Source of the DNA: a virus | DNA: 64,000 bases | IMG/VR virus record: IMGVR_UViG_3300027985_000918 | Coordinates: 248,001 to 312,000 of that record | Strand: one strand, 5' to 3' | In this document: positions 6,307-61,237 of the stretch, in pieces | Position numbering within the stretch: position 1 is the first letter of the stretch | How the letters are laid out: every line of letters starts with the position of its first letter | Translations under genes and position numbers: made by a program | The notes under the pieces: model-generated | Database searches by the model: none | Seen by the model: only the letters and a program-made list of their open reading frames with translations | Told to the model about the DNA's origin: nothing

Positions 6307-6318
6307 GGGTCACCCCCT

Positions 6319-16953: not shown

Positions 16954-17189
16954 TAGCTACCTCCCCCGTGCTTAATCAGGGCGAGCTTCTGCAAGGCCTC
17001 AGCCTTCTTGCCTTCCCACTCTGCGAGCTGCTGCTCCAGGATGCTGCGAAGGCTAAGGAGTGCCCGAGCCTGCTCGGTGGCAAATGCTGGACGAAACGTA
17101 GTCCCCCCACCGGCATCCCCCCAGGCCCCAGCCTTCCGGCCAATCTTCTCCAACTCCTGCCGAGCCTCTTCGGGTGTCAACGGTTTCAT
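16953..17189 (-). CDS. Small coiled-coil protein (78 aa)
   Basis: It starts with MKPLTPEEARQEL, overlaps the end of the 3900-aa gene by ATGA, and its TAA overlaps the start of the 1013-aa gene (TAATG). The C-terminal half (SLRSILEQQLAEWEGKKAEA) predicts one long helix, probably a coiled coil. Tight coupling on both sides suggests a chaperone or small baseplate subunit for one of the two large neighbours. Confidence 0.65.
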   Translation of the reverse strand: MKPLTPEEARQELEKIGRKAGAWGDAGGGTTFRPAFATEQARALLSLRSILEQQLAEWEGKKAEALQKLALIKHGGGS

Positions 17190-20100: not shown

Positions 20101-23100
20101 CGCTGCCCGTGCAAATGGTCCCGAGAGGTCCCACATCCGACGACGGAATAGCGGAAAACTTGATGTCCGTGGCCCCTACGTTAGCATCCAGGATGCCCTC
20201 GAAGGCCACCGCCTTGATGGATCCCCCGACAGGAGAGGACCACGTCCCCCCCGCCAACTCGTTTGCGATGTCGGCGGCCGTCTTTCCAATGAATGTCAGT
20301 GGTGCCCCCCCGTTGACATTCCGGTTGATAGTGGACGACACCCCCGCCACGCAAGTGACCTCCTGCACCAGCAGGTCAGTCTCCAAACTGGTCGAGGAAC
20401 CCGGATGGGGATGCACACTTCCCCGAAGGCGAGCCTTGCGGAAGTCGATGACTTCATGGAAGGTTAGGCGGTCCTCGTCAATGTAAGCCGTGTCGCTTTC
20501 ACCCCGGGGGGCCGCCCAACCGTTGTACGTGTCGATGTCGATCGCTACGTCGTACTCGTACTTCAGGGCTCGGCGGTATCCCGCTGCCAGAGGGTTGAGC
20601 TGGGTGTACGGGACGAACCATGTCGAAGTGCTGTCCCCCGCCATCGGGGTGACCACCAAACGGAGGCCTCCCGTGTTCTCCGTCACCACCAGCTCACCCA
20701 CGTCACCGGGATGGTTCGCTTGAAGCCCCACCAAGTCCCCCACCGCACTGGCAACCGCCGAGATATTCAAGGGGGCCGCTGCCTGGATGAGAGCCTGGGA
20801 AGCAGGGTCATTGATCGCTGCCGCCAGGCTGGTGGCGGTAGCGATGGCTGACCCCGAACCGGCCACGTCGTCAAATTGCTGGAGGGCTGCCACGGCGCCG
20901 CCGTTGACCGCAGTGAACACAACTCCGCTGATCACAACCTGGTCACCGGCAGCACATCCGGGCAACACCTGCACAGAGCCCTGGGCCACAGGAAGACCCA
21001 GAAGAAGGTGGTCCATGAGGGAGCCCACGGATGCCCCAGTGATGACGATGTGGCGGTTTTGCTCGAAGGGCGCCCCCAAAGGAGCAGGGTCCGTCGTGCC
21101 AAAAACCGCCGAGAGCCCCAGGGCAGTAAGCCCTGGGAGCCCAGAGACCGTCTCCGTGACGGTCACATCCGTCCCCTGAATCACAATGCGGAACAACTCG
21201 TCCCCACCGTTCGGCATCGGGTTTCCGCTGGGGGTGTTCGTGATGAGGACATCATCACGGGCCAGGAACCTGACCGTGATTTTGTTGTTGGCCTTGGCCC
21301 CCGCTGCCGACCAGATGCTGTTCAGGTTGCCGGTCCCCGCCGCCGTCCCGTCGTTCAGGGCGAGCTGGGTGATGGAGCTGAAGTCCAGGACGAGAGTGTC
21401 GGTGACAGCATCCCCATTCGAGTCGTACTCGTACAGGAGGCATCCGCTGACGGGATCGTTCTGGGGGTCATCCCCTACGTACCCATCCACATGGACGATG
21501 GCGTTATTGAGGATGTACCTCACAGGAGAGCCCGTAGGGCCTCCTGGGGCCACCGGAGGCGTGGTCTGAGTGACGAACCGGGGTGGCTCAAGGAACGCAA
21601 CACCGGCGGCAGGAGAGGCCACTGCGGCCACGTTCAGCAGACCCTCGGCCCCCACGGGGACAGTCCCCTGGCCCACCTCCATCAACAGGAGGTCATAGGG
21701 ACGCAGGGCCTCTTCCCCCACCCCGGCCGGGAAGGGGTCCACACCAGCCATGAGCACGCCCGCCTCTTTCGTGGCGGGTCCTCCCTGGAAGGGGGTCCCC
21801 ACGTCTGCGAAGTTGTTGCCCGAGGTGTCCAAGATCTCGCCGTCGTTGCCGACGATCTCGTCAGGGTAGATGTACGTCCCGCCGCTCTGAGCGAACACCC
21901 CGAACAGGTTGGACATCACCGAGGCGTCGCCCAGACGGTCCAACTCCGTGTTCCCAGACCTCAGGTACGGGATGGCGTAGTCCCCATCGTCGTCCGTGGA
22001 CCCCCCCAGCAGTGCGGGGAACTCCAGAGGGAGGGTACGGTCGTACACGAACTCGACAGGGCCCTCCAGGGGGCTCAGCGGCCTCGGAGCCTTCTGGCCG
22101 AAGATCTCTTTAAGGCCAAAGAAGTAAGGATCATCGAAGCTGGGCAGGGTCGTGTCCACGATCCTCCCATCGGGCTTCACTGAGAAATCGAACCCATTAC
22201 GGAAGATGTCGATGGCCGACCCCATCTCACGCAGCTCGGCAATAGTCGGGGGGTCCGAGATTTCTACCCCTTTCCCAAGTGTCGGAGAAACGTAAATGGT
22301 GTCCCCCTGCTCCAGGGGGAACTCGTGGAGAGGAGTACCGAGAATTCCCTCGGTGCCCACCAGGATGTTGTTCGGATTGTCCAGGAGGGTACCGGAGCTG
22401 TCTGCAAATCGGATGAGGCACCCGAATTGCACATCATAGACATGCAGAGTGTCGAGTACGGGGGTTCCGAACACCGACAACAGACTGACGTTCTGTCCGA
22501 TGTGCGTGCTGCCGTCAGGCTGTCCCCAGAAGATCTGGTCCCCGGTCACGAAACCTGGGAGGGCCAGTTCGGGATCCCCAGCCTCAGCATCCGCCAGATC
22601 TCCACCTTGGGAGATGAGCCGACTCACGTCGAGAAGCCCCGACTCTGGGCTCACCGGAACCTCAGACAGGGGGAGCTGGGTGACGATCATGCAGGGTTCG
22701 ACGATGTCCGCTGCGGGAACCCCCACATCAAAAGCGTCCTGGAGGATGCCGTCCGGGAAGTACCCCCAAACCCTCGCCCTTGCCCGGCGAGGACGGAGTG
22801 CCGAGTCCGAAATGTTCGTGATGCCCCCCAGGACGGGGTTGCTCACCAAACCGATCTCCGATCCCGTCGTTCGCTTGATGCCGCCGTCGATGCTGCGACC
22901 ATAGGTATAGATGCCGGGATCTCCCGTGGCTTCATCTGCCCCAATACCCGGATAGGTTAGGAAAAACGCCTTGGCTTGAGTGGGGAACAGGCGGCTCAGG
23001 AAGTGGCTGGAGGACATCCTCTTGAAGTCCACCCCTCCCTGAAGGGAGAAGTACGGGTACACGGGGAGTAGCTTGATGCGGGGCCTTCGCTTGGATGCTG

Positions 23101-26100
23101 CCACCCGATCATCCACGTCGTTGGTCACCAGCATCCGCTGGTGGTCCATCAACCACTGAAGACGGTCGGCATCGGGGTACGGCCCACCCAGCACACCGTC
23201 CACCAGAGTTGCCGCCGTGGGCTCTACCAGGTTGTCAGTCTCCAAGAAGATAAGATCGTTCGAGGGGTCCGCCTCATTGACCACCATGCTCCACAGGTTC
23301 TTAGGCTGCAACACCCCGGTGATCTCATCCTCGTAGCCCGGGGTGGGCCACTCCAACCCCCGACCCACAAAGAACCGGAATTTGCCGTCCTTGTCCCCGA
23401 CGAAGCGTCCGTCGATAGTCTCGGTGATCTGCTCGAAAGCCATGATGGCCTGGTTGTAGTAGTCCAAAAGCACCCGGGCGGCCCGATCTTTGTCCACCAG
23501 GTGGCGGCGCTCCCAGATGAGGCTAGTGTTGCCCTTGTCCCAGTTTTCCTCCCCCTGAGTAGTCGTGGTGAGGGATCCCTTCCCCGCCTGATTGGCCTGA
23601 GCTTCCTTGACCGCCTCCCGAATTGCCTCTGCAAGGAAACTCGTTAGAGTGGGAATGCGGAAGTAGTACGTATCCGGGCTGCGGAAGCTGTATGTGGCCT
23701 GAAGCAGGCCTCCCAGGAGCCCATTGTCCCGATCCGGCAGCGTGTTGTACAGGTAGGTGGCGAACCCCCGGGGCTCTACCACCACTCCATCTTGCACGGT
23801 AGGGCTGAGGGTACGAAGACGGGTGTGGCTCAGGATGAGCTTCTGCCCAGGACCCAAGGGGGCCTGAACCGGCTCCAGCAGCTCAACCACTCCCGTAGTG
23901 GGATCCAGGCTGTACTCGATGTTGGGGATGAGGGTCCGACCCGGCAACTCGTTGCCGTTGACGTCCGTCTCCCCGAAAAGCACCAACTCATACCCCTCGG
24001 TGTCCACCAGCGGGCCGAGGGGGAGGAACGTCCGCACCCCCGGCGGATAGAGCGGCCGGTAGCTCAGTTTGACCGTGGAGACGTTGTCCATCGAAAGGCC
24101 CGTCTCCACTGGGGCGGTGAGCGTGATCTTGGTGTACGTGCCCTCGGGGTTCAGTTCCGCACTGGCGATGGTGAACGGGTAGCCCCCGATCTCCAGGATG
24201 TGCCCGGCGATGGCAAACTGAGTGAGGTTGCCACGGAAGTTGATGGTCTTCTGTCCCTTATTGACGGGCTCGAACGGAAACTCCGATAGAGGGACCGCTT
24301 GCATAAATCCTGCAGGGGCACTGGTCGTGACGGGATTAGTCCCGTCGGGGTCCACCGCAGTAGTAACGGGCCCTGCCGAAATGACCGTCAGGACATCGTG
24401 ACCAGGGGAACGGGTTCCGACCTCTCGGGAGGTCGGGGGGAAAATGTGAACCTTCGTGACATTCCCCGCCTTGACGATGGGCTTGACGGGGTTCAACGGG
24501 TTCCGTTCTTCCAGAGGGGTCGTCCGAGGCGGGAAGTATTCGACCGCCTTCACATAGAAGCAGTTTGCCCCCAAACGGATGAGCTGCCCCGGAAAGAAGT
24601 CTGCCAGTCGGTTTCCCTGGAGCCCAAAGCTATCCACCCCTGCCTTGAGGAAGAAGGGTGGGCGGTACACCGGAGCCGAAGACACGGTATAGGACCGCTC
24701 CCCCCCGTTGGCCTCCAGAACGGCGTAGCTCACCTGGACCGGGACGTGATCCGGAATGGTCTTGGAGAGGAACGTGATCTTGAACGGGTCTCCCGGATCA
24801 TCGGGGGACTCCAGGATGTAATCGTCCCCCTGGAAGTTCTGGATCATGGCCCCGATGAACACCGTGGGATCGATACGGGTGTCCACAGTCCGGCTGTCGG
24901 TGTTGAACGTGAACGTGAAATGGTTGACCCGAGTCGCTTCGGTCTTGGTAACGAAGACCGGCAGGAACTCTTCGACCAGTTCACCCTCCTTGCGCCCTTC
25001 CATGTCAGCCTGGTAGTACCGCACCTCCACCGACTGGAGTGCCTGAAGGGGCTGCTGGAACCCCACGGTGCCTGCAATGGGATTCAAAGACACGTCGAGG
25101 CCATTCTCCGTGATCATCTGCTCGACGAAGTACACCCTCTTTCCGGCATGGGAGATCTGATCAGCACTCCCAATGTTCAGCAGCCCCGAATCCGGGTTGT
25201 ACTCGGCCATCCCGGAAACCATGTCAGCAGAAGCCCGGAACTCTTCCTGGTAGGTAACCCGAGCTTTGGCGTACCTGCTCAGCAGATCATCTGCGAACTT
25301 GATTCTCCCTGCGGGGTCCACCCCCACAGACTGAGTCAGTACCTCGACAGCCCCAGCCGGAACAGGGTCCGAAAAAACCCCGACATGAACAGGGGTGAAC
25401 TTATCCGCCCCAACCCGCAGGGAATACCGGATGCCCGTGAACCTGGTGGATCCCACCCCGGGGACATCCAGAAGGTTGTTTGCGATAGCCCCCAGAACCT
25501 CCCGGCTAAGAGGCGTCAGGATGGCCGAGTTCGTTCCGTCATCATGGGCCAAACCAAACCGGATGGAAATCACCCTCCCTCGGGAGACTGCCCCCTCTAC
25601 ATTGGCGGTGAGGGCCCCTCCCACAAATCCCAGAGGAGAAAGTACGTTGACCTTAAACGGCTCATCGGGAAGGTGGCTGAAGTTCTGGTACACCTGGTCG
25701 GCTACCACCGCCGGGTCGTACACGTCCTCCGAATACCCCCGGTACAGCTCCCACGGAATGGCCTGAAGGGCTTGCGCCAGGAAGGGGGGCTTTACTCCCA
25801 ACTCCGTCCCGCTGCTCACGGATTCCACAAGGTAGGAGCCCGCCTCATCCCCGGACAGGAGCTTAAGGCGATAACCCTCTCGGACAACAGGAAGGTAGAC
25901 TGCGGCACCCCCGGAGAATAGGGGATTTCCTTCCGTGTCCGTGGCCTGCTCTTCCGACGGCTCCAGGAAGTTGGCCGCCGGGTCCGTGAACAGGCTCCCC
26001 CCCGCAGAGTAGGCCCCCCTTCCCCCGAACAAAGCCAGGTCCCCGTACCTCGTAATGAGCACGGCGTTTCCTGGGATCCCGTCGTTGGGGAGCAGGTAAT

Positions 26101-48175: not shown

Positions 48176-51100
48176 TTACAAACTTGCCCGGAGGTGGAAC
48201 TCAAGGGTGATGTACAGCAACGGGAACACCGGGCTGTAGTAGGCCACCACCTCAGCCACCGTCGGATCGTCCGCAGCCACGTTGGCCTTGACACCCGTGT
48301 AGGCGGAGATGATCTGCTGCTTCACCAAGGACTTCAGCATCATGCTCAGCCGGCCTTCGATCTGGGTGAGGATGCCGGGAAGAAACTTGATGCCGATGTA
48401 CCGCTCCAGAACCCCACGGCTCTGCCGCTGAACCTCGTCAGCGATCATCTGAACCGTCGGGAGCTTCAGGAGGCGGTAGCTCTCCTGGGACGGCTGGATG
48501 GTCGAGAGACCGTGACGGACCCGCAGGTACGGGGGCCGCTCTTCCAACACGATGACGCCCTTGGTTGCTACCTGGTTCATCTCGACGGCGTCGAGGCGCC
48601 GACCAAGCTGGCTGAACCCGACAAGGTTCCGTCCCGTCCACGGGGTCGCCACATCCACGCTCGGAGACACAACGGAACCGGCCAGGGCGGCGGCAATCAT
48701 CGTGCCGTCCACCAGGTGCTCCTTCGTGGATCCGAAAGCATTCGTGAGCTGGATAACCGCCACGTCCGGGTAAACCAACCGCATACGGGAGCTGTTCAGC
48801 GTCTGAGCCAAACTCATGGCGTTCTCGGGGGTCTTACCCGCCGACATGCCAATGATGCTCGTCCGCTCGCTCTTGTAGCGGATGGAGGACTGGATGCTGT
48901 TGGACCGGCTCAAGAGCTGATACAGCTCCGTGGAATCACCCCTCAGCGGGACGATGATGTCCGGGTTCACCCGACCCGGCAGCACCCCTTCCAGAGCCTC
49001 GATAGCCGCCCGGTAGCTCGTCACCGAAGCATAGCTGCTGTCGGTGTCCCGAACCACCTGCTTGATCCCCAGGAGAACGGCCCCGTTCAGGGTCGCCAGG
49101 AACGCCGCCAAGGAGACCGGATTGTCCGGGTGAATCGTGCCGTAGGCCGCCTCCACCGACGACAACTTCGTGTAGAAGGCCGTGGAGAAGTCGTCCTTCT
49201 GGTACGTGTACGTGACGTAGTACACGTCCCCGTTCAGAGGCTCGTTCCCCCCTCGCTCATAGGTGCTCACAACGGCCGTGTCACCCACCGCCATGCCCAG
49301 GGTGTTTGCCACCTTCAGCTCCAACCCCTTGAGCGCCAGAACCGGGAGGTTGGCGTCCGTGGTGAAAGTGCTGCTGACAGCGAACTGGAACGTGGCATTG
49401 ACCCCGGTGGGGTAGTTCACCCAGGGGCCGGTCGGGTTGCTGCTGTAGCCACGGGGAAGCACAGTGAACGTGAGTCCCGTGACAGAATCCCGGTAGGTCT
49501 GGCCAACCACACCGTCAGATCCAGTGCCGTTGTTCAGGACGGAGTCATTGGCAGAGCCAGATCCGTTCGGCTGGTTCGACACGACGAAGAACCCGTCGAT
49601 GCCCGCCTCACCGACCGCACCGTCCAGGCTCTCAGCGTTGACCCCCGTTCCCGGAGCCAGCCAGGAGTCCGTGACCACCGAAGCCACCGTCGGGTCACGC
49701 AGCTCGACGATGGAGCTGGTACCCAGGGACTGGCTCAAGAGGAACAGGAAATCGTTCCCAGCAGAGTCCTCAATCACCGAGGCCATCCCGAGCGTGGCGA
49801 ACATCTCGTTTGGATTCGGATTGACTGCCGTGAAGTCGAGTGCCCAGGTGGCGAACGTGCTGTGGCGGTTCTCATTCAGGGCCGACACCAGGGTACGGGC
49901 ATCGGGCAGCTCCCGCTGGGAGAGATCTCCCACCGTGAGCCCGAGAACGCTGGCAGCGGAGCCACCCGTGACCTCAACCTTGGAGAATACGTCGTACCGG
50001 GCCGATGTGAGGCCAAGACCCGCACCAACCTGGTAGACGATGCCGTTGGCGAACACTGCGGCGGCCGAGGCGCCGAACACCGTCGTAGCGGCGGCGATAG
50101 CGTCAATGATCTGGTCAAGCACCGAACCGTTGCTCGTCCCCGAAGCAGGGCCGAGGTCCGTCGCCGTGCCAGCCGCCGAAGAGGTGAACTGGACAGTGAT
50201 CGGGATGCCGTCGATGTTGATGACCAGCTCGTCGTTCGCCGCCTGGGAACCCGTTCCGTCGTAGAACACGACCTCGGGCTCAGATGTGGCAATGTCCTGG
50301 CCGCCCGTGAAACCGACCTGGCTCTCCAGGTAGGCAGGAACCACGGTGGAAGGACCACCCGCACCAAAGTCTCCTGTGGAGAGAGAGAAGCGGTCGAGAG
50401 CCGTACCCGCTCCCACCCGAAGCTCCATCTGGGCGACTTCGGACTGGGAAAGATCCCCACCAACCACCGACGGGATCAGGCGGTTGCGGAGGATAACCCG
50501 GTCGTACAGAGCACCGGATGCCCCGGCCACCGAGATGGTCTTCATCACGTCGCCAGCACACACGACGTGGGCCTGGCCTCCGCCTACGGCTGCCGCCGTC
50601 GAGAACCCCAACAGCTTGGCGAGGCTGTCGGCATCGGCAATGCCGTTGTTGATGAAGGTGAAGAACGCTTGGGCATCATCACCCGCAGCCCGGCATTTGA
50701 CCACGATGCGGCCGGAAGAGTCAGCCTCGACCACGAAGCCGGCACCGTCGAAGGCTGCTGCCGCCCCAACCCATCCCCCTGCCCCGTTCAAAGCAGCCTG
50801 TAGAGCAGCGGCGAGCGCTGCCGGACTGGTGTAAGGGCCAGCGGCCAAAGAGATAACCGCCGATGTGTAGGTACCTGCGGAATCTCCCGTGTACACGAAA
50901 CGGATGTCCGAGAAGGCCGTCAGATCCACCGGGCCGTCGATGACGGTGGCTCCCTTGTACTGAGCCATCGTGTCCGGATTGTACAGGCGCATCCCGGACC
51001 CGCCACCCACGTCCGACGCTGCTCCGGTCCAGGCTGCCACAGTGGCGATTCGGGTGGTCGAGTTGTAGTCCGTGATCGTGCGGACATCGCCCGCACCCGC

Positions 51101-53494
51101 AGCCATCGCCGGGATGAGGCTCACGTCACCGACCACGACATTCCAGCCAACGAAATACCCGTTGATGCTGCTACCGGGAACCGAGGCTGGCACCCGGAAC
51201 GTGGTGGCCGAGCCACCAGCATCCGAGGTGAACTGCACACCGTTGGCAGCCTCATTCACCGAGTCGTCCAGATCGGACACGTCGGAAGCCGTCTGAGCCG
51301 GGATGATGACCGGAATCTCGACCCCGTCGATGTAAAGGATCAGGTCCTCGTCGGTCGCCAGGGTGTAGCTCTGACCAAGGGTAGCTCCGGTGCCACCGTC
51401 GTAGTTGATCTCACCGCTGACCAAGTTCGCTGGGACACCGCCACCGTGGGTGGTCGGGTCGAGCAGGCTGATACCGGCCAGGCCAGCGTCCAGCTCCGTA
51501 TTGTCCAGACGGATGCGAACCTGGTCCGACTCATTCGGGATGAACTCGTAGGGGCCGTACCCCGGAACCGAGTACATCGCCTGAGTGGCGTCCTTGGACT
51601 CGAACTGGACCGTCACCACCTCGTTGATGGGGCCAGTGAACTCGTCGCCGGACAACCCCTCGAACCGGGCATCGGGAGTCAGCTCGGAACCGCTGGGCCA
51701 CTCCAGGGTCACTCCCGTGAGGGAGCTTCCCTTAGTCGTCGTGGAGAACGCAGCGTTGTAGATGGAGTCCCCGGCCTCATCGGTGATGGTGTACTGGCCC
51801 GTGCCACTGGCACCGATGAGGCGGGCAGTGAGGGTGAATTCCCCATCGGTCAGGGTGTTGTAGTAGAACGAGGCGTAGACCGTGGCACCCGTCGGGACGG
51901 ACTCGGCTAGCTCGATGATGTTCCCCTCGACCTTGGTCACCGTAACGGCACCCCGGTCCAGAGCGTCTTGGACGCTGTAGCCCCAAAAGGCGTTGACCAC
52001 GTCAGGCCGGTTGGTCGGGAGGTCGATGCGGCCGTTGGAGACCGTCTGGAACAGGCTGGTACCCAGAGGGGTGTTCCGACCATTACCCAGGGTCGGGGAG
52101 AACGGCAAGGTGAATTGGGTCTTGCTCTCGAAAGCGGAACCTCCGGAGGACAGAACCACCGGGGAGCAAGGGCTCATGAAGGTCTTGTCATCGACCAGCG
52201 TACCGCTGACCTGGGTCTCGTTGAACAGCTCAGAGCCCGAACTAGTGGTGTCCGCCTCGACCGTCCAGGCCGTACCCCAGAGGATCTTGTCGTCCTTCAA
52301 GACGAAGTCGGAACCCTGGTTGAACCCAACACCGTCGGGGACCTCACCAAGAGAGGTGACATCGACCACATTGTTGTGGGCAAGGTAGTCGAACGTGTTC
52401 TGCCAGGAGTTGAACCAGTAGGACACAAGGACCGTGGCGCCCACCTTCGGGGCCGTGGGCAGGGTGACCGCCCGAGTCGTCCCATCCACGCTGGTCGGAA
52501 TGACCTGAGTGCCGTTCACAAGAACCGTTACCTTCGAGGTGTCGGTCGTGGTGACGCCGCCATTGGTGCCGTCCACGATGGGTCCTTGGAACGTATAGAA
52601 CGTCTTCCGCCGACTGGTGGTCTGACCGCTCAGGAGACCGAGAGCGGAGTTGGCCGAACCGGCCCCCACCGTCACGTCGTTGGTCGCTGTCAGGCTCAGG
52701 GCACTGTGGCCGAACTGGTTCAGGAACGTGCTGGCCGTCAGGGTGCCCAGAGCTGCCGAACTGATCAGGTTGGCTACCTGCTTCATGGTATACGTGCCGG
52801 GGCTCAGCACAGATGTGTACTCCGTGCCGTCCACCGTCACGACGAACTCATTGTTGCCCGGGGTTACCACAGCACCGTTGGCATCAAGAGCATCCGCCCG
52901 CAGAATCACCGTCTCGGTACCCGGGGTTTGGGCATTTACGTCCTGGATGCCGGAGATGGCCCGGATGAGAGCCGGGTCCACGGACACCTGATCGGACAGA
53001 TCGTCCGTGATGTAGGTGTCGGTTCGGTTGAAGTAGTAGGTGACCCGCACGTCGGCATCGGCTGCCGGGGCCTGGGCCAACTCGACAATGCCCGTCAGGC
53101 CGTTCACCGACAGCACCACGATGGGGGTGCCGTTGATGGTGACAGAGACATCGGAGCGGCTGTAGGACACCGTCCCAGTACCGTCTCCGGTCACGATGGG
53201 CAGCTCACGGACCTTCAGCTTGGTGCGGACCCCGTCCCAGTTACCGACAGTCACGGCTCCCGCAGAGGAGATGGAGACCACGGCTCGGCCAGTGGCGTCC
53301 TCCTTGACACGTCGCTGGTCGATGTCAGCCGAAGACCCACGGACCACTTCCAGATTCCGCTGAATCAGGAACTCATTGCCTTCACCAATGAAAACGGGGA
53401 TTTTGAGGGTGTCGAGATTGCCCGCAATGGGGTTCTCGTACAGAGTTCGGGTGTACACGCTCGGAGGGGCGTACTGCTCGCCGGGGAAAGCCAT
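48176..53494 (-). CDS. Giant contractile tail sheath protein (1772 aa)
   Basis: The start chosen is ATG at 53494 (MAFPGEQY), eight bases after GAGAGG; a TTG six codons earlier overlaps that site. The first 60 residues have the sheath N-terminus (P-P-S-V-Y-T-R-T, then T-L-K-I-P-V-F-I-G-E-G). The last 350 residues (48176 to about 49250) are the conserved C-terminal sheath fold, with GRVNPDIIVPLRG, SERTSIIGMSAGKTPENA, TPWTGRNLVGFS and GRLSMMLKSLVKQQII. About 1300 residues between are extra beta domains: DUF2460-like motifs near 53018-53152, 52397-52540 and 51854-51955, and flagellin-IN-like modules near 52619-52849, 50590-50915 and 49930-50250. Usual sheaths are 450-700 aa. The additions should decorate the outer tail surface. 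Confidence 0.85.
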   Translation of the reverse strand: MAFPGEQYAPPSVYTRTLYENPIAGNLDTLKIPVFIGEGNEFLIQRNLEVVRGSSADIDQRRVKEDATGRAVVSISSAGAVTVGNWDGVRTKLKVRELPIVTGDGTGTVSYSRSDVSVTINGTPIVVLSVNGLTGIVELAQAPAADADVRVTYYFNRTDTYITDDLSDQVSVDPALIRAISGIQDVNAQTPGTETVILRADALDANGAVVTPGNNEFVVTVDGTEYTSVLSPGTYTMKQVANLISSAALGTLTASTFLNQFGHSALSLTATNDVTVGAGSANSALGLLSGQTTSRRKTFYTFQGPIVDGTNGGVTTTDTSKVTVLVNGTQVIPTSVDGTTRAVTLPTAPKVGATVLVSYWFNSWQNTFDYLAHNNVVDVTSLGEVPDGVGFNQGSDFVLKDDKILWGTAWTVEADTTSSGSELFNETQVSGTLVDDKTFMSPCSPVVLSSGGSAFESKTQFTLPFSPTLGNGRNTPLGTSLFQTVSNGRIDLPTNRPDVVNAFWGYSVQDALDRGAVTVTKVEGNIIELAESVPTGATVYASFYYNTLTDGEFTLTARLIGASGTGQYTITDEAGDSIYNAAFSTTTKGSSLTGVTLEWPSGSELTPDARFEGLSGDEFTGPINEVVTVQFESKDATQAMYSVPGYGPYEFIPNESDQVRIRLDNTELDAGLAGISLLDPTTHGGGVPANLVSGEINYDGGTGATLGQSYTLATDEDLILYIDGVEIPVIIPAQTASDVSDLDDSVNEAANGVQFTSDAGGSATTFRVPASVPGSSINGYFVGWNVVVGDVSLIPAMAAGAGDVRTITDYNSTTRIATVAAWTGAASDVGGGSGMRLYNPDTMAQYKGATVIDGPVDLTAFSDIRFVYTGDSAGTYTSAVISLAAGPYTSPAALAAALQAALNGAGGWVGAAAAFDGAGFVVEADSSGRIVVKCRAAGDDAQAFFTFINNGIADADSLAKLLGFSTAAAVGGGQAHVVCAGDVMKTISVAGASGALYDRVILRNRLIPSVVGGDLSQSEVAQMELRVGAGTALDRFSLSTGDFGAGGPSTVVPAYLESQVGFTGGQDIATSEPEVVFYDGTGSQAANDELVINIDGIPITVQFTSSAAGTATDLGPASGTSNGSVLDQIIDAIAAATTVFGASAAAVFANGIVYQVGAGLGLTSARYDVFSKVEVTGGSAASVLGLTVGDLSQRELPDARTLVSALNENRHSTFATWALDFTAVNPNPNEMFATLGMASVIEDSAGNDFLFLLSQSLGTSSIVELRDPTVASVVTDSWLAPGTGVNAESLDGAVGEAGIDGFFVVSNQPNGSGSANDSVLNNGTGSDGVVGQTYRDSVTGLTFTVLPRGYSSNPTGPWVNYPTGVNATFQFAVSSTFTTDANLPVLALKGLELKVANTLGMAVGDTAVVSTYERGGNEPLNGDVYYVTYTYQKDDFSTAFYTKLSSVEAAYGTIHPDNPVSLAAFLATLNGAVLLGIKQVVRDTDSSYASVTSYRAAIEALEGVLPGRVNPDIIVPLRGDSTELYQLLSRSNSIQSSIRYKSERTSIIGMSAGKTPENAMSLAQTLNSSRMRLVYPDVAVIQLTNAFGSTKEHLVDGTMIAAALAGSVVSPSVDVATPWTGRNLVGFSQLGRRLDAVEMNQVATKGVIVLEERPPYLRVRHGLSTIQPSQESYRLLKLPTVQMIADEVQRQSRGVLERYIGIKFLPGILTQIEGRLSMMLKSLVKQQIISAYTGVKANVAADDPTVAEVVAYYSPVFPLLYITLEFHLRASL

Positions 53495-53530
53495 CTTCGT
53501 ACCTCTCTTCAAGGTGGTCAGTTTTCCAGC

Positions 53531-53714: not shown

Positions 53715-54149
53715 TCACCCCTCTTTCACCTCACCCAGCCCTGCTTGCATGGCCCGGCTATTGATGCGGTTCGCCCTCACGGCGAATCCTTTCTCATCTG
53801 GGGTGATAGTTCTGTACTGCCCGTCAGGGTCTCTGGAGATCAAACGAGGGTCGACTCCTTCCCGAATGAGCTTCCTCTTGTCAGCCTGGCGCTTCTCAAT
53901 AACTGCCATGCTCTGTTCGGCGCTCTTGCCGATGACCCGGTCGATGTGGGTATCCAAGTCATGAATGCCCGTATTCTGTGGCCCCGGTCCGTTCACGGCC
54001 TTGTTGAACCTCCCGCTCACCGTCGCCGGCATCATGCGGGGCGCCAACTCACCGCAGTCGGGGCACTTCTGAGGCTCAGCCGCTTTGGATGCTTTGTTGG
54101 ATGCTGGGAACTGCACGCCGCAGTCACACTGATAGCGGTACGAAGGCAT
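53715..54149 (-). CDS. FmdB-like zinc-ribbon protein (144 aa)
   Basis: Residues 1-40 form a zinc ribbon of the FmdB/regulatory type: YRYQCDCG with C8 and C10, then CPDCGE with C29 and C32. The remainder is charged and helical (AEQSMAVIEKRQADKRKLI) with no known domain. It is the last gene of the neck block before the sheath leader. Similar small zinc-ribbon proteins occur in phage structural clusters, where their job is unknown. Confidence 0.65.
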   Translation of the reverse strand: MPSYRYQCDCGVQFPASNKASKAAEPQKCPDCGELAPRMMPATVSGRFNKAVNGPGPQNTGIHDLDTHIDRVIGKSAEQSMAVIEKRQADKRKLIREGVDPRLISRDPDGQYRTITPDEKGFAVRANRINSRAMQAGLGEVKEG

Positions 54150-54168: not shown

Positions 54169-55023
54169 TCACGTTTCACCGTACCCGAAATCGTGCTTGA
54201 TCTTCTCCACGTCAAGGTGCAGTCCCCCATCCCACACCAGATACCGCTTGCCCAGGAGAAACAGAAGTCGGGCAGCCAATGCGGCTGGCAAAAGGGTGAA
54301 CGTCCCAAACCCAAACGAGTTCATCAAGAACCCGATGGCACTACCTGGCAGGGAAGACAACAGATCAGACAGGGACAATGCGCCTGTGAGGGCATCCGTC
54401 AGCGAGTGGATATCCCACTCGAACTCCGTCACGTTCATCCAGATCCAAATGTAAACGGCAAGCATCAACACCCTGGACATGGCTGGAGCGTACTTCCGCA
54501 GCCAGTGATCGAACTGGTCTACCTTAGGCTTGACCGACGACTGCACCCACTTCTTGAATCCCGGCAGCTTGTCCATCCATTGGGAGATGAGGCTGTTGAC
54601 GCTCAGTAGCTTGGATTCTTCCAACGTGAACAGCTTAAGGGGGAAGGTGCTGAACATCTTCCCCACCGCCTTGCGAAGGGCCTGATACCCCTGCTTCGCC
54701 AGGTCCTTGATGGCCCCGGGCAGCTCCAAAAGGGACTTGATCCCCAGCCTGTCCTTGAAGGCCTCCCAGAGCTTCTTGCTCTTGGAGAACACCTTGCCAA
54801 GCTGCTGGAGCTTCTGACGAATATTCCCGAAGGCCACCTTGCCGTGAGGGAGGAGGAACTCCCCGAACGCTTCCAGAACCTCGGGGGTGATCTCCTGGAA
54901 GTGGGCCGTCTTGGCACCTACGGAGGAAATACTGTGATGAGCCTCCCGGGCGGCCATTCGGATCGTGAATCGAACCGCCAGGCGCTGGGCATCTCTCATG
55001 AGGGTATCGTTCATCTGACTCAC
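54169..55023 (-). CDS. Helical protein with C-terminal hydrophobic segments (284 aa)
   Basis: The GTG at 55023 overlaps the TGA of the preceding gene; an ATG three codons later is an alternative. Residues 1-180 are basic amphipathic helices (LWEAFKDRLGIKSLLELPGA, KQGYQALRKAVGKMFSTF). Residues about 195-215 (MSRVLMLAVYIWIWMNV) and 250-270 (FTLLPAALAARLLFLLG) are hydrophobic enough to span a membrane. Placed among neck genes. It could be a minor virion protein that enters the membrane, or a virion-carried effector; the family is not recognised. Confidence 0.55.
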   Translation of the reverse strand: MSQMNDTLMRDAQRLAVRFTIRMAAREAHHSISSVGAKTAHFQEITPEVLEAFGEFLLPHGKVAFGNIRQKLQQLGKVFSKSKKLWEAFKDRLGIKSLLELPGAIKDLAKQGYQALRKAVGKMFSTFPLKLFTLEESKLLSVNSLISQWMDKLPGFKKWVQSSVKPKVDQFDHWLRKYAPAMSRVLMLAVYIWIWMNVTEFEWDIHSLTDALTGALSLSDLLSSLPGSAIGFLMNSFGFGTFTLLPAALAARLLFLLGKRYLVWDGGLHLDVEKIKHDFGYGET

Positions 55024-56228
55024 CGAATCAGGGCGTAGCCCTTACCGACCTGGTAGTAAGGGTCCCGGACTGTGCTTAGACCCAGATGGGTCATGGCCTT
55101 GATGTTGCCTTCCTGCCCTACCAGTTCCTCATCCGAGAGCCCGGCGATGTAATTGGCCTGCTCCAGGGTAAGAGGGGTGACCTGGCGAAGGTTGACGTTC
55201 AGCGGGACGTAGGCAGCCCACTCCGTCTCCACTGTGAGTGAGAAGCTGGAGTTGAAGATGTAGTCTTCCCCCTGCTCATCATAAATCTCTTCGGACTCCC
55301 CCCCGATGGAGATGTTCATGATCTCCAGCCCCTCCGTGGAGAGCTGCCCCCTAGCGGCGCCGAACAAATACATGACGGAGTTGTCCGCAATCTCCCGCTG
55401 GTCAAACACGTCCCGGGCGAACACCTCGAAGTCCATCGTCATCTCCCACCGGCCCCCGTACTCCAGGGCGGAGGGCCGTCGGGTCGTCTCCACTACAACG
55501 GCGAGCTGGTCCCCATTGAACACCCTCCTCCCGAAAGCCAGGACTACCCCTGGAATGGCCGTGTTGTTGGCATGCCTCTCGATGATTCGGTGGGGCCCCG
55601 TGCTTTCAGTCACATAACGGTAGTCTGCCTGGAGCCACCTGCCCCCCGACAGAGGGGTAGTCAGGTTGATGACACCCGTGGGCGATCCCGAGTCGGGGTC
55701 CGTCTCCAAAGTATAGTTGGACCCCTCCACCATCATGTACCGGGCGGGCATCTCGAATAGCCGGAGAGTCCCAGCCACAGGGGAATTTGCAAGGACTCCC
55801 GTGGTGGTGTCCGATAGCATGACCTGTTCGTGGTACACGTTCAGGAGGGGGTCCACATAGAAGACCATGTTCCCGTCTTCCTCCATCACGTCCAGGTAGT
55901 AAACCCCAGGAGGACTGGGAAACACCCCGCCGTTTCTCTGGATCTCCCGGATGTCCTCCCGAACCCACTCCACCGAGTACCCCGGCTTGTTGTTCACCTT
56001 AGCCCAGTGGCAATGGCTGTACACAACCCCCCGATAGTTGTCGGCCGAGAGAGGGATATGGCTTCCACCACCCGACTTGACCACGATCCCCCGCTGGGGA
56101 CGATCCTTGAAGCTGTACTTTCCCTGGATGTTGTCGGGCAAGTCTGAAAACTTCGGGTGGGTCAGCCAGTACCTTCGCAGCTCCTGAATGAAGCGGCGGG
56201 TTAGGTAGTCGGTTAGCTGGAAAAACAT
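55020..56228 (-). CDS. Neck/tail-completion candidate (402 aa)
   Basis: The start chosen is ATG at 56228 (MFFQLTDYLTRRF), with GGAGG five bases upstream, rather than the GTG four codons earlier that includes that site. The N-terminus is helical (RRFIQELRRYWLTHP), then a beta-rich body with a DUF2460-like motif near 55605-55720 (DSGSPTGVINLTTP, then WLQADYRYV). The C-terminal part has FEVFARDVFDQREIADN, typical of phage proteins joining the neck to the tail tube. Role inferred from place between the co-chaperonin and the sheath. Confidence 0.55.
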   Translation of the reverse strand: MFFQLTDYLTRRFIQELRRYWLTHPKFSDLPDNIQGKYSFKDRPQRGIVVKSGGGSHIPLSADNYRGVVYSHCHWAKVNNKPGYSVEWVREDIREIQRNGGVFPSPPGVYYLDVMEEDGNMVFYVDPLLNVYHEQVMLSDTTTGVLANSPVAGTLRLFEMPARYMMVEGSNYTLETDPDSGSPTGVINLTTPLSGGRWLQADYRYVTESTGPHRIIERHANNTAIPGVVLAFGRRVFNGDQLAVVVETTRRPSALEYGGRWEMTMDFEVFARDVFDQREIADNSVMYLFGAARGQLSTEGLEIMNISIGGESEEIYDEQGEDYIFNSSFSLTVETEWAAYVPLNVNLRQVTPLTLEQANYIAGLSDEELVGQEGNIKAMTHLGLSTVRDPYYQVGKGYALIR

Positions 56229-56262
56229 GGTTGCCTCCACGGGTCCTACTACGGGACCTGCG

Positions 56263-56269
56263 ATAGGCT
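56263..56269 (-). promoter_or_regulatory. GATAGGC variant of the TATAGGC element (copy e)
   Basis: The plus strand reads GCGATAGGCTACC, 35 bases upstream of the ATG at 56228. It differs from the other copies at one base. A 5-bp stem (GGTCC/GGACC, 56243-56259) lies between it and the ribosome binding site. Confidence 0.25.
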
Positions 56270-56603
56270 ACCCACCGGGAAGGAGGCGCAGAAGCCCTCG
56301 GCCGTCGAACAGTTCGAGTCGGCCAGTAGGGGTTCGGATCAAGTCCCATGCCACTCTCTGAGGAACCCGGGCTTGGGCAATACGGTTTGCCTGGGGGGTG
56401 ACTAAGGGGTTCAGGAAGATCCCCCCCCAGTCAGGGGGCTTGATCTTGGATATGGGGATCAGATGCCAGACATAGTCCGCCACGAGGAACCCCAGATATC
56501 TCCGTTTGGGGTCATCGTAAGATCTCAGCCAAGCTCCCTTACGGAGGGCCACCTCGGCTCTCCTAAGCCACCCGCCCAGAGACCTGGAAACTACCTCCCT
56601 CAC
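56268..56603 (-). CDS. Small protein in neck cluster (111 aa)
   Basis: The GTG start directly follows the TAA of the GroES-like gene. The sequence is basic, with an N-terminal helix (RSLGGWLRRAEVALRKGAWL) and a hydrophobic strand pair (YLGFLVADYVWHLIPI). It has no recognised domain. Size and position are compatible with a head-tail joining protein. Confidence 0.5.
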   Translation of the reverse strand: MREVVSRSLGGWLRRAEVALRKGAWLRSYDDPKRRYLGFLVADYVWHLIPISKIKPPDWGGIFLNPLVTPQANRIAQARVPQRVAWDLIRTPTGRLELFDGRGLLRLLPGG

Positions 56604-56942
56604 TTACTGCCCCTTCACAATGTACGGAAACACTGCGACAGGGAGGGACTCAGACACTTTGTCGGCATACTTCCCCAACACCTGGTGACCCCCCACGAGA
56701 ATACACTTCTGGCCCAGCCCCACCAACTCGATCTGGCCTTCAGGGAGATAGGCCACCCGGTCACCGGGGACATAGGGCATGGGGATCACCTTGCCATTCT
56801 CGAACACCCGTCCCTCCCCCACCCCCAGTACGAGACCAACCTCATACTCCCGAGGAAGGTTGCTTCCAGGCATGAGGATACTCCGATCGTCCTTCATGTC
56901 GGGGACGACCACAAGGCGATTTCCGGTGGGAATGAACTGCAT
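56604..56942 (-). CDS. GroES (Cpn10)-like co-chaperonin
   Basis: 112 aa from ATG at 56942 (MQFIPTGNRLVVVPD), AAGGAG ten bases upstream; a TTG three codons earlier is too close to that site. The Cpn10 fold is clear: GNRLVVVPD strand, a mobile-loop region (DDRSILMPGSNLPREYE), GLVLGVGEGRV, then VPGDRVAYLPEGQIE and a final strand before HQVLGKYA. T4 gp31 and related phage co-chaperonins replace GroES when GroEL folds the capsid protein. Here the gene sits next to an actin-fold ATPase and neck genes, and no GroEL is in the window, so it would use the host chaperonin. Confidence 0.75.
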   Translation of the reverse strand: MQFIPTGNRLVVVPDMKDDRSILMPGSNLPREYEVGLVLGVGEGRVFENGKVIPMPYVPGDRVAYLPEGQIELVGLGQKCILVGGHQVLGKYADKVSESLPVAVFPYIVKGQ

Positions 56943-56969
56943 GGGGTTCAAGCTCCTTGGTGAGATGTG

Positions 56970-57998
56970 TCAGTCCTCTTCGTGCTCGATGATGGCCTGG
57001 GTCAGCATCCCGTTCGCAACCGCATTCATGGGATCGGAGGCGTGCCGGATCTCAGACACCTGGACGGGGAATCTCTTCCGTCGCTTATCGAACTCCCGCT
57101 CAAAGAGCTGGAGGAAATTACCCGCCATGCTCGTACCCCCGGAGACCACCAGAGGGATGGGAGTGGGCAACTCGAACTGCCCCTTGATATCCTTGAAACG
57201 CTTGGCGATCTCGTCGAGGGCGTAGCGGATCAGCTCCTTGTAATAGAAGGTAATCGCTTCCTGCTCCCTCCCCTGAGGATTCAGAAGGTCCACCCCCGCC
57301 TCCTTGATGGCACAGATACGGGCCTGGGTGGACCCCACCGACCCGGCGACCCCAGAATCGATCCAATCCCCACCACGAGCCACCGAGAAAGACAGCCCTT
57401 CGATGGTGTTGATGGCGAGAGCCACGTTGGTCATCCCTGAGCCGAAGCTCAGAGCGATTCCGCTGAACCCGTTCTTAGCGCACTCCGAGAACACAATCGC
57501 CATCGCCTCGTTGCTAGGCCAGGGGGTGTAGCCGCATTCCTCGACGATCCTCTCAAAGACCCCCTTGTGGTAGATCACGTCCTTCTGGGGACGGTCGACA
57601 GGGGCTGCGGGGACCGAGAAGTAGCAGTGCTCCCCGGTGATTCTGGGGGGCCCCAGGATCTGCCTGATCATCATCCCGAGAACTTCCAGAGCCTCGATCT
57701 CACCGGCAGCCACCAAACCTGCTTCGAGGGGCCGCCGGGCCTCTTTGCCGAAAACGTTGGCGGTCTCCATCGCAGCATCTCCCAGCAGGAGCACGTCATC
57801 TTCTCGCTCAACGAAGCTGGTCCCCGACAGCTTGAGCATCTTCTTGGCGGACGGGGGAAGATCCAGAAAGGCATCCCGCATCCGATTGTGCTCCACCCCG
57901 TTGGGGGTCCTGCGAGCCGCCACCAAGTTCATAGTGCCGATGTCGAGCCCTACCCCATGGGGAGCCTGAGTCGTTGCTTCTTTCTTTGTGGGTGCCAT
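56970..57998 (-). CDS. Actin-fold (MreB/ParM/Hsp70-like) ATPase
   Basis: 342 aa. Nucleotide-binding motifs are visible: phosphate-1 GVGLDIGTMN (D19, G21, T22), a connect-1-like EAMAI (164-168), phosphate-2 LSFGSGMTNV (183-192), ARGGDWID (207-214), and adenosine motif VVSGGTSMAG (284-293). The length is that of MreB/ParM rather than DnaK, and there is no substrate-binding domain. AGGAG stands eight bases before the ATG. Phage actin homologues usually move or position DNA, but this one is encoded inside the virion gene cluster beside a GroES-like gene, which could mean a role in assembly. No ParR-like partner or centromere repeats are seen nearby. Confidence 0.8.
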   Translation of the reverse strand: MAPTKKEATTQAPHGVGLDIGTMNLVAARRTPNGVEHNRMRDAFLDLPPSAKKMLKLSGTSFVEREDDVLLLGDAAMETANVFGKEARRPLEAGLVAAGEIEALEVLGMMIRQILGPPRITGEHCYFSVPAAPVDRPQKDVIYHKGVFERIVEECGYTPWPSNEAMAIVFSECAKNGFSGIALSFGSGMTNVALAINTIEGLSFSVARGGDWIDSGVAGSVGSTQARICAIKEAGVDLLNPQGREQEAITFYYKELIRYALDEIAKRFKDIKGQFELPTPIPLVVSGGTSMAGNFLQLFEREFDKRRKRFPVQVSEIRHASDPMNAVANGMLTQAIIEHEED

Positions 57999-58009
57999 CT
58001 GGGGGTCTC

Positions 58010-58651
58010 CTATTCCTTGCCCGTCTTACTCTTCCGGGCCGCTTTAAGTGCCGCCGCAGCGTCGGCCACCCCGGTGCCCTTCGCTTCGGACCTCTTGACC
58101 TTAATGTCCCCCTTCACATCCGCCGACACGAGCTTGTCGGGGATGAACACAGGGGTGGGCTCATCCTGGATCGTACCCGAGGATTCCACCGACGTTCGAG
58201 GTACTGGAGAGCCAGCCACCTGCATGTTCGCCAGGGCGGCCAAGAGCCGGGACTCCATCCCTGCAAGCTGCACATGGACCTCTGCGGCTACCTCTTCCCT
58301 GGTGAGGCCTGGGGGGATCTTCTCCTCCAGTACCTGAGCCACCACTTGTGGGATCACCTGGATGAGCGCCGGAGGGGGGCTCGTGTGTGAAGTAGAAGGT
58401 GAAGCTAGGGGTTGGGGCAAAGGATTCTGGACCACGGGAGACACCCGGGGTCTCCGGGGAAGAGTTCTCCGCTCCTCAAACCTCTTGACGGGCCTAACGG
58501 AGACTGCCCCATTCTGACGAGCCCGGTGAAGATCCATTGATGCCTGAGCTTCCGCATAGGGGATGTACTGCTTGTCTCCCCGGTCGAGGGTCAGGCCCAG
58601 ATCTGGCAGCTCGATGTGTCGGCAAACGCCGGTGATTTCGGCTTCGATCAT
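58010..58651 (-). CDS. Unknown protein with Pro-rich linker (213 aa)
   Basis: The start chosen is ATG at 58651 (MIEAEITGVCRHIEL), which overlaps the upstream stop as ATGA and has GGGGGA ahead of it. The first 45 residues form a small beta domain (L-P-D-L-G-L-T-L-D-R-G-D-K) like those of many small phage proteins. A Pro/Ser-rich linker and helices (REEVAAEVHVQLAGMESRLL) follow, with a Lys-rich tail. It lies directly upstream of the actin-fold ATPase gene, so it is the best candidate for an adaptor of that protein; inference only. Confidence 0.55.
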   Translation of the reverse strand: MIEAEITGVCRHIELPDLGLTLDRGDKQYIPYAEAQASMDLHRARQNGAVSVRPVKRFEERRTLPRRPRVSPVVQNPLPQPLASPSTSHTSPPPALIQVIPQVVAQVLEEKIPPGLTREEVAAEVHVQLAGMESRLLAALANMQVAGSPVPRTSVESSGTIQDEPTPVFIPDKLVSADVKGDIKVKRSEAKGTGVADAAAALKAARKSKTGKE

Positions 58652-59262
58652 TTGGTCGGATCCCCCTTGGCCAGATGCCGGACAATCTCCTCCACCAGTC
58701 TGCTCACGCACCTTTTCCTCCCCTTACGGATCGCCCTCTGCACGAAGGTAAACTTGGCGATACCCGGGTGAATCCAGGCGTCCTGTGTCTCGAAGGGGGC
58801 GAATCGGAGGATAACCCCTCCCCCCTTCTGCTTTAGGGGGACGATCAAAGGCAAACGCTCACCCTTGGATACCTTTCCCGACTTCTTCATACCCCTACGG
58901 CGTTCCCCGGGGGTCAGGTTGAACCGCTCAGGGTGCTCTTCTTTGTATTCCTGAGTCATCCAGGTCATTTTTCGGCTGGGGATGTCCCCAGAGGTCAGCT
59001 CTGGCATCCCATACCAGCTCGACTTGATGTCAATGGTGCTCTTACCCACGATGCGGAAACTCCAGGACTCCGCAAAATCGGGCCCCCCCTTCGGATCACG
59101 GACGGACCACCCCCTCTTGGCGAAGTCCTTGAGACCTTCCTCTATGATGGTCTCGATGAGGCACTTCGCCAGATCTTCCAGCACCTCCCGGGAGATTGGA
59201 ATCTTGGACATCTCCGACCAAGGTTTCCCATAGACACTCCGCACTCGACGGATATCACCCAT
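58648..59262 (-). CDS. Possible neck/tail-completion protein (204 aa)
   Basis: It starts at ATG 59262, although an internal ATG at 59211 (MSKIPISREV) has a better spaced GGAG. Helices with LEDLAKCLIETIIEEGLKDF near the start, a beta middle (SFRIVGKSTIDIKSSW), and a terminal helix (FVQRAIRKGRKRCVSRLVEE) give the outline of HK97 gp10-type tail-completion proteins. Similarity is general rather than diagnostic. Coupled by ATGA to the next gene. Confidence 0.5.
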   Translation of the reverse strand: MGDIRRVRSVYGKPWSEMSKIPISREVLEDLAKCLIETIIEEGLKDFAKRGWSVRDPKGGPDFAESWSFRIVGKSTIDIKSSWYGMPELTSGDIPSRKMTWMTQEYKEEHPERFNLTPGERRRGMKKSGKVSKGERLPLIVPLKQKGGGVILRFAPFETQDAWIHPGIAKFTFVQRAIRKGRKRCVSRLVEEIVRHLAKGDPTK

Positions 59263-59335
59263 GCGTCACCACACCGCTTCTTTCAGGTAACCCAAGCGGC
59301 CCCGCAAGTAGATGAAACGAAGCAAGGAGAACCCT

Positions 59336-59779
59336 ATGCAGAACCTGACTGTGAGCGCCGTAAAGAACTTTTACCGCAACCCGAAAACCTCCGCCTTGCG
59401 GGTTGCCGTTTTGGCGGCCCGGGAAATCGCCGCCGAGCGGAGGACCCATGTCGATGGGTACATCAAACCGCTCTTGGCGGTGATGGACCTGCGGGACACG
59501 AAGGGAGAGCAGATTCTCGACACCAAGTGGCTCTTCCTCTGCGAGGATGAGGACGCCTGCACCGCATTCTACGCCGCCTGCGACGTGGCCCATCGGGAAC
59601 ACGGGTTCCATCTGGAACCTGGCTACTGCCCCGCCCTCGTGGCGGAGAGCAACGCCATCAACGCCGAGAACGCCCTCATCGAAGCGGCCTCCGCCCACTT
59701 CGAGGTGGACTTCACTCGCCTCTTCAAGCTGGAACAACGACGTCAGCTCTTGGACCTCCTAGTCAACGGCGTCTACTGA
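59336..59779 (+). CDS. Unknown plus-strand protein (147 aa)
   Basis: The start chosen is ATG at 59336 (MQNLTVSAV) after AAGGAG. The same AGGAGAACC leader precedes the plus-strand genes at 46948 and (as GGAGAACC) 47251. The protein is alpha-helical and soluble (ALRVAVLAAREIAAERR, NALIEAASAHFEVDFTRLF), with four Cys residues not arranged as a zinc site. It interrupts the minus-strand neck cluster and ends in a hairpin shared with the convergent gene, so it is probably expressed separately, for example early in infection. Family not recognised. Confidence 0.65.
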   Translation: MQNLTVSAVKNFYRNPKTSALRVAVLAAREIAAERRTHVDGYIKPLLAVMDLRDTKGEQILDTKWLFLCEDEDACTAFYAACDVAHREHGFHLEPGYCPALVAESNAINAENALIEAASAHFEVDFTRLFKLEQRRQLLDLLVNGVY

Positions 59780-59792
59780 GCTGCCTCAGTAG
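59773..59792. terminator. Palindrome holding both convergent stop codons
   Basis: CTACTGAG (59773-59780) pairs with CTCAGTAG (59785-59792), loop CTGC. Each arm contains the TGA and the preceding Tyr codon of one of the two convergent genes. No U tract follows, so termination strength is doubtful. Confidence 0.45.
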
Positions 59793-61237
59793 GACGTGTT
59801 CTCCCAGACCTTGGTTCGACCCCTCTTCTCGGTATTCTCGGGAACGCTGCCTTTCTCGCTCTGAAGAGGGGTCTCGGCGGGATCATCTGCCCCCTCAGGA
59901 TAGCTCGGACCTGCCCAACCCTCATCCTGGTCATAGGACCTCTCCCCAGTGACGGGCATCCTCGGGTAGATAGGGGCCTCCTGGCTAGGAAGAGGCCGGG
60001 TCTCCGGCCAGGCCAGATCTTCGGTGCCGTCGATAGGCACCCGGTAACGAATGTCGCCTTCGCTGAAGTAGCCAATGTTGAAATGTTGCTGAAGCATATT
60101 GCCCCGATGCGTCGGCCTGCGGACAGCACCAACACTGTACCTCTCGTTGGTCTGCTTCACGATGAAGTCCCGCTGGGTGATCAGCGGGGTAGGCCCCATC
60201 CAAACCTCGTAGGTATGCTCCTTACGACGGCCGTACATGGTCTGTGTGATTCGGCGCTCAGCGTCATCCGGGGCGATGATAATGTCGAAAGGACCGTCGT
60301 AACCACCAACGAAGCCTGTGCCATAGCAAATAAGGCAGTTGTTTTGTGGCTGGCTGTGGTACTCCAAGCTCCTGGGGTCCAGGGTGCAATCACAGGGGAT
60401 CCCGCTGTGCTTGCGAATGAACAGCTTCACCCTCTCTCCACCCTGCTGGAGAATCCAGTGGTTCCGCCGGACCGCCTCTTCCCAAATCCAGTCGATGCTC
60501 TCCACCTCAGCCGTGGATAGAGGACGACTCTGACTTAGAGGGGTTTCGCTGTACCCCGAGGGGGTCTCGGAATCGAGAACCACTGTGGTCAACCTGTACC
60601 AGATGAACCTATCGAGCCCTGAGACGTTGTAGTTCCGGAACGTCCAGTATTCGACCTCGACCACGGAGTCTTCAGTGGGGATGAGAGCGTTTACCGCCGA
60701 CTCCGTCCCCACATCGAACTGGGCCTGGTTGATGAGGGTCACCTCACCAGAACGCCCGAAGACGTCACCCACAGGAACCTCAACCCCGTCGATGTACAGA
60801 GTCACATCGTCCGGGGCATTTCCGTACACGGGAGCAGCACTATAGATGCTGTCCGTCCCCCTCTTGGCGATCCTCTTCTGAGTGCGGAACTGGAACTTTC
60901 GGTCGTTAGGCTTGTCACCCCTGAACACCCAGTCTTGGTTCCAGCGGACGGTCTCCCGGACAGGAATGATGTCGGTCTTGTCCTGGTAGTAGCACGAGCC
61001 GATGGGGTACTCGTTGATCCGGTAGAAAGGGCCACGGTCGGAGCTGTCAGAGCGGTAGATGTTCACCCCCACCACATGGTAGGCGGTGTTGCCGGACAGG
61101 AGGGCAGGATTTTCCCACCGGATGTCGTGGATACCCGGTGTGAACATGGACACGGCGGCCCCGTTCGTGGGTGGGAGTGGGTACCCCCCCGAACCGAATC
61201 CTGATCCCACACCCAACGGGTCCCATCCGGCCGTCAT
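59786..61237 (-). CDS. Virion connector/neck protein with zinc-finger-like motif (483 aa)
   Basis: Residues 1-80 hold a fibronectin-like edge (DIRWENPALLSGN, HVVGVNIYRSD). Residues 142-200 carry a DUF2460-like module (DDVTLYIDGVEV, then GEVTLINQ, then VVEVEYWTF). Near the middle is a cysteine set, C282-x-C284 and C301-x2-C304 (in NNCLICYGTGFVGGYDG), which looks like a rubredoxin-type metal knuckle. The C-terminus is acidic and disordered. It is the first large gene of the minus-strand structural series, a usual place for a head-to-tail connector. Role is inferred. Confidence 0.6.
   Translation of the reverse strand: MTAGWDPLGVGSGFGSGGYPLPPTNGAAVSMFTPGIHDIRWENPALLSGNTAYHVVGVNIYRSDSSDRGPFYRINEYPIGSCYYQDKTDIIPVRETVRWNQDWVFRGDKPNDRKFQFRTQKRIAKRGTDSIYSAAPVYGNAPDDVTLYIDGVEVPVGDVFGRSGEVTLINQAQFDVGTESAVNALIPTEDSVVEVEYWTFRNYNVSGLDRFIWYRLTTVVLDSETPSGYSETPLSQSRPLSTAEVESIDWIWEEAVRRNHWILQQGGERVKLFIRKHSGIPCDCTLDPRSLEYHSQPQNNCLICYGTGFVGGYDGPFDIIIAPDDAERRITQTMYGRRKEHTYEVWMGPTPLITQRDFIVKQTNERYSVGAVRRPTHRGNMLQQHFNIGYFSEGDIRYRVPIDGTEDLAWPETRPLPSQEAPIYPRMPVTGERSYDQDEGWAGPSYPEGADDPAETPLQSEKGSVPENTEKRGRTKVWENTSY

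Follow-up and report, generated by a model that had tools for sequence, protein, structure and literature searches.

The cytoskeletons known from phages are for the most part tubulin spindles and actins that move DNA. An actin-fold gene that lies among the genes for the virus particle raises the question of what its product does there, and with which partner. We addressed this question in a window of 64,000 nucleotides, bases 248001-312000 of a 402,383-bp IMG/VR virus record. The initial annotation of this window described an actin-fold ATPase next to a GroES-like co-chaperonin inside the virion operon and read the two as one ATP-driven assembly or folding system. Both ORFs lie on the minus strand, the actin at 56970-57998 and the GroES-like gene at 56604-56951, and their annotated positions are exact.

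In the direction of transcription the genes encode proteins of 483, 204 and 213 aa, the actin, the GroES-like protein, proteins of 111, 406 and 284 aa, an FmdB-type zinc-ribbon protein and the tail sheath, all from the minus strand. The tail sheath (48176-53512) was recognized by PHROG 2839 at 1.2e-23. The actin and 213-aa genes are upstream of it and baseplate genes lie further along, which confirms the location within a virion cluster. For the main phage clade, gene presence was counted in 40 long loci. The 204-aa protein (58648-59262), which has a WIHPGIxxxxF motif, is present in 40/40 of these loci, and the 483-aa protein (59786-61237), a putative neck protein with a CxC..CxxC metal-binding motif, in 35/40. 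The 406-aa protein (55020-56240), the zinc-ribbon protein (53715-54149; PF09723 at 4e-7, which is below the cut-off, and PHROG 1076) and the sheath were each found in 28/40. The 111-aa ORF (56268-56603) is rarely conserved, with phmmer matches in few relatives only. The 204-, 483- and 406-aa proteins had no informative match in PHROG or PDB. At 1,778 aa the sheath protein is unusually long, and its match to the sheath family is confined to the C-terminal part. The tail region also contains a 3,900-aa ORF (17186-28888, minus strand). In about 18 relatives a 333-aa zinc-finger-like gene lies between the 483-aa and 204-aa genes (L003:5255-6256); the window is without it.

Family, fold and distribution of the actin

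The 342-aa protein matched the Pfam family Volactin (PF25216) with an E-value of 2.2e-69 and 235 bits against a cut-off of 35, the match spanning positions 3-321 of the 321-position model. The runner-up, FtsA, was marginal. The haloarchaeal volactin motifs GLDxGTxN, SFGxGMxN, RGGDWID and GGTS are all found in the phage actin, SFGxGMxN being the phosphate-2 motif of the family, and haloarchaeal plasmid volactins are ~34% identical to it over 95% of its length. Judged from its sequence, the protein is firmly assigned to the volactin family. Volactin of Haloferax volcanii (VolA, HVO_2015) belongs to the same Pfam family, with a full-length match. The phage actin differs from VolA in that it is phage-encoded, sits in a virion cluster, adjoins a candidate adaptor with a phage-specific head and is not known to act on cell shape.

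An AF2 model built from 39 sequences (pLDDT 93, pTM 0.90) predicts a two-lobed actin fold with phosphate-1, phosphate-2 and adenosine motifs. In structural comparisons the model ranked closest to the MamK filament (Z 28.9 over 295 residues, 3.2 A), then to BeeR (27.4) and MreB (26), with FtsA (24.9) and eukaryotic actins (~25) below them. Because all actins score high, these Z scores show the fold of the phage actin and not its function. MamK was also the top sequence-profile match (6e-6), and FtsA scored well. Although MamK, MreB and BeeR are the best structural matches, the phage actin is only ~16% identical to them, lies outside their family cut-offs and has another genomic context. The actin fold takes up almost the entire 342 aa and reaches the C-terminus, so the DnaK-type C-terminal substrate-binding domain is absent, as the initial annotation had noted. 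An Hsp70 minus its binding domain was ruled out, since the protein matches Volactin and has no HSP70 match in Pfam.

Relatives of the actin are encoded on 512 IMG/VR stretches, of which the best 80 were studied in detail. In a tree, the phage actins that were included group together in one clade (99% support), and LR756511 falls outside it. A second huge-phage clade of 108 relatives, ~30% identical, surrounds LR756511 and is referred to here as clade B. In the main lineage, which is one lineage of huge phages, the actin is fixed in the neck/tail-sheath cluster. No isolated phage with a volactin-family actin was present in the phage collection searched, where the only carriers were two metagenomic records. 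Among cellular genomes, PF25216 was above cut-off in 76/199 sampled Planctomycetota and in 15/48 sampled in the Magnetococcales order; the family is also present in haloarchaea. One actin that falls in the phage clade comes from a contig in a Thermoplasmata archaeon bin (L087:126-1142); this contig is probably a phage one.

Classical actins have an Asp in phosphate-2. All 81 viral and all 28 cellular sequences examined have a Ser in its place, as do almost all clade B actins and all 12 Magnetococcales actins. E164, the likely catalytic Glu, is conserved in the same 81 viral and 28 cellular sequences. Because the Asp to Ser change is family-wide, nucleotide hydrolysis by the phage actin may be unusual. 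One clade B actin gene is interrupted exactly at the phosphate-2 motif by an intein-like insertion (CLCPGT...HNC; L114:5369-7507).

The 213-aa protein and its C-terminal tail

The gene directly upstream of the actin (58010-58651, minus strand, start at 58651) encodes the 213-aa protein that had been put forward as a candidate adaptor, and it has kept that standing. A gene recognized by the conserved tail of this protein adjoins the actin upstream in 77/77 testable loci, which are relatives within one lineage rather than independent cases. The two genes are mostly within 100 bp of each other, with 450-2,535 bp between them in nine loci. The AF2 model of the protein shows order in the head (residues 1-60) and disorder in the linker; one helix lies at 118-145 and another, in the tail, at 195-210. 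The C-terminal tail (58010-58150, minus strand) has the consensus FIP..(V/L)DxAxxALKAxRKKK, in which I-P and L are invariant in the alignment. A tail-profile search of five large phage records found exactly one place in each, the gene upstream of the actin, which excludes additional tail-bearing proteins in those records. The head gave no confident fold match and no known DNA-binding fold. Only weak matches (E 0.003-0.02) came up, to small proteins of phages, among them a DUF2635 protein and Gp158 of Bacillus phage G.

Partners encoded beside cellular volactin-family actins were compared with the phage protein. In Planctomycetota the gene upstream of the actin encodes a coiled-coil protein that ends in ESNIxxVxVKExKAGGVxxxLxKLKxLxK. 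The phage and Planctomycetota tail profiles matched with a score of 22.9, compared with a mean of 7.5 and a maximum of 14.6 in 300 column shuffles. Because shuffling destroys helical periodicity, the column shuffles overstate the significance, and sliding windows along both proteins are the fairer control. In this test only the two C-termini matched each other (scores of 21.9 and 24.9, where other windows reached no more than 9.9 and 12.5, respectively), the matches being short. Hence the Planctomycetota partner, which is likewise encoded upstream of an actin, has a C-terminal tail like that of the phage protein.

Haloarcula and Natrinema encode a membrane protein with tail-like motifs upstream of the actin, shown to be DUF7139 for Natrinema. 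The haloarchaeal tail gave z 5.2 against phage tails and z 6.7 against Planctomycetota tails. Magnetococcales have two genes upstream of the actin, one for a small membrane protein and the other for a FimV/HubP-type protein, and both products have FIP-type tail ends. These two tails resemble each other (z 7.5) and the Planctomycetota tails (z 5.4 and 3.5), and are weaker against the phages (2.4 and 4.6). Most clade B loci encode a 67-87-aa partner upstream of the actin with a different tail, WAIPDF..KFGK, whose resemblance to the motif is not significant (z at most 3.2). Over the phage-Magnetococcales and clade B comparisons together z ranged from 0.4 to 4.6, which is weak. The head of the phage protein is unrelated to the heads of the cellular partners. 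In one Magnetococcales locus the gene for the FimV/HubP-type polar landmark adjoins the actin (L109:7099-9372), and its product is a possible polar anchor.

The GroES-like neighbor

The GroES-like ORF encodes 115 aa from a TTG or 112 aa from an ATG at 56942, the ATG being the likely start. It matched Pfam Cpn10 (PF00166) at 2.4e-7, with 31 bits against a cut-off of 21, and also PHROG 3188, 'co-chaperonin GroES', in agreement with its annotation. The pairing with the actin did not hold. A GroES gene is near the actin in only 2/42 actin-bearing records, the window phage and its 85%-identical closest relative, although absence from the other 40 is not absolute as some of these records are fragments. 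LR756511 has a weak GroES-like match far from its actin. The gene occupies a variable slot, bounded by the actin and the 406-aa gene. Across 51 loci this slot ranges in length from 3 to 9,440 bp, and it contains 105 ORFs in 61 sequence clusters. GroEL is encoded by the same phage, ~300 kb from GroES, at positions 5014-6528 of the record. GroEL is present in 9/22 related records, mostly without GroES. A phage GroEL of ~540 aa lies close to a record end (L147).

The GroES gene is a rare insertion and its adjacency to the actin is incidental; a conserved actin-GroES pair is ruled out by the 2/42 records and the variable slot content. As with T4 gp31-like GroES and phage GroEL, the neighbor belongs to the GroES family and GroEL is encoded in the same genome, but this is a separate system that is not conserved alongside the actin. 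Most likely GroES serves the phage's own GroEL, outside any module of actin and adaptor. A single ATP-driven system of actin and GroES for folding or assembly is thus hardly credible, even though the genes are adjacent here and close together in the closest relative. The initial annotation had held that a phylogeny among pilus or partition proteins, with no co-chaperonin link in relatives, would speak against it. The relatives indeed show no such link; the actin, however, groups with volactins and not with pilus or partition proteins.

A candidate cytoskeletal module for virion assembly

We lean, if only just, towards an actin filament and its adaptor forming a phage cytoskeletal module that ties virion assembly to the filament. 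The module would have two parts encoded within the virion gene cluster, the volactin-family actin and the 213-aa adaptor. The actin probably polymerizes, as volactin does in vivo; haloarchaeal volactin forms dynamic filaments and affects cell shape (PMC10869688). Within the family, dynamic filaments are known for H. volcanii VolA only. The C-terminal tail of the adaptor would bind the actin, and its phage-specific head would attach to a component of the virion or to an intermediate in neck or tail assembly, perhaps the 204-aa protein. Because the head has no confident fold match, this cargo is guessed from the order of the genes. Within the host cell, such filaments would set the place or the timing of tail and capsid assembly, or provide its transport. 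Prophage actin AlpC and its adaptor AlpA provide a working precedent (PMC5539076). Together these observations suggest that these huge phages use a cytoskeleton of their own during particle building.

The actin could instead be an assembly ATPase or chaperone that does not polymerize, following the logic of Hsp70, FtsA or PilM, with the adaptor recruiting neck or tail subunits and the nucleotide state gating assembly. The position in the virion cluster, the dedicated single-copy adaptor, the unusual phosphate-2 Ser and the good scores of FtsA in both fold (Z 24.9) and sequence profile are consistent with this explanation. We nevertheless consider it rather unlikely, as the actin belongs to a family whose studied member forms dynamic filaments (PMC10869688), and as MamK, a filament former, tops both the fold and the sequence-profile matches.

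DNA segregation or transport of the ParMRC or AlpAC type, in which phage DNA would be the ligand of the adaptor and genomes or replication sites the cargo of the filament, appears improbable. Huge phages need intracellular order, and an actin with an upstream adaptor gene recalls AlpC-AlpA (PMC5539076). The AlpC-AlpA-alpS system of Corynebacterium prophage CGP3 and ParMRC likewise combine a phage-encoded actin with an adaptor gene whose product couples the filament to cargo. However, no family match was seen between their actins and the one described here. AlpA binds DNA at alpS sites, whereas here 56200-59900 contains no direct-repeat array of the parC or alpS kind, the adaptor head gave no confident fold match, and none to a known DNA-binding fold, and the genes sit in a virion cluster. 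Very improbable, in our estimate, is an actin directed at the host, one that copies or interferes with a volactin-type host cytoskeleton and controls cell shape, polarity or division during infection, or that travels in the virion and is injected. Such systems do exist in potential hosts (the Planctomycetota and Magnetococcales counted above), and volactin affects cell shape (PMC10869688). On the other side are the strict linkage of the actin to particle genes and a head domain unrelated to those of cellular partners.

The cytoskeletal module would differ in kind from the PhuZ tubulin spindle of nucleus-forming jumbo phages, with which it shares only a functional analogy, that of a phage cytoskeleton in a large phage. 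PhuZ is a tubulin and the protein here an actin, and no tubulin (PhuZ) gene was found in 8 records of these phages. Tubulins in huge phages were described by Al-Shayeb (2020); the word actin is absent from the portion of that text searched. The volactin literature, searched mostly by title and abstract, did not appear to treat phages. No description of the actin-adaptor module was found in the literature searched, partly at the level of abstracts, which is no proof that it is undescribed. Retention of an actin among the clustered particle genes of a widespread lineage of huge phages would link cytoskeleton and virion assembly.

In Planctomycetota a related tail is joined to a coiled-coil head; the phage would have the same tail with a different head. 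Less certainly, related tails may be carried by the DUF7139 membrane protein of haloarchaea and the FimV/HubP-type polar landmark of Magnetococcales. It is possible, though we hold it with less than even confidence, that archaea, several bacterial phyla and two huge-phage clades share a modular cytoskeleton of volactin-type actin and partners with a common actin-binding tail at their end, and that phages have joined this tail to a virion-cluster head, which gives a filament system dedicated to virion assembly. The candidate tail motif supplies concrete partners for volactin, in the form of DUF7139, and candidate partners for the apparently unstudied actins of Planctomycetota and Magnetococcales. 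In Planctomycetota, the volactin-family actin and its coiled-coil partner occupy a conserved chromosomal neighborhood (L101:9019-11020) and are widespread.
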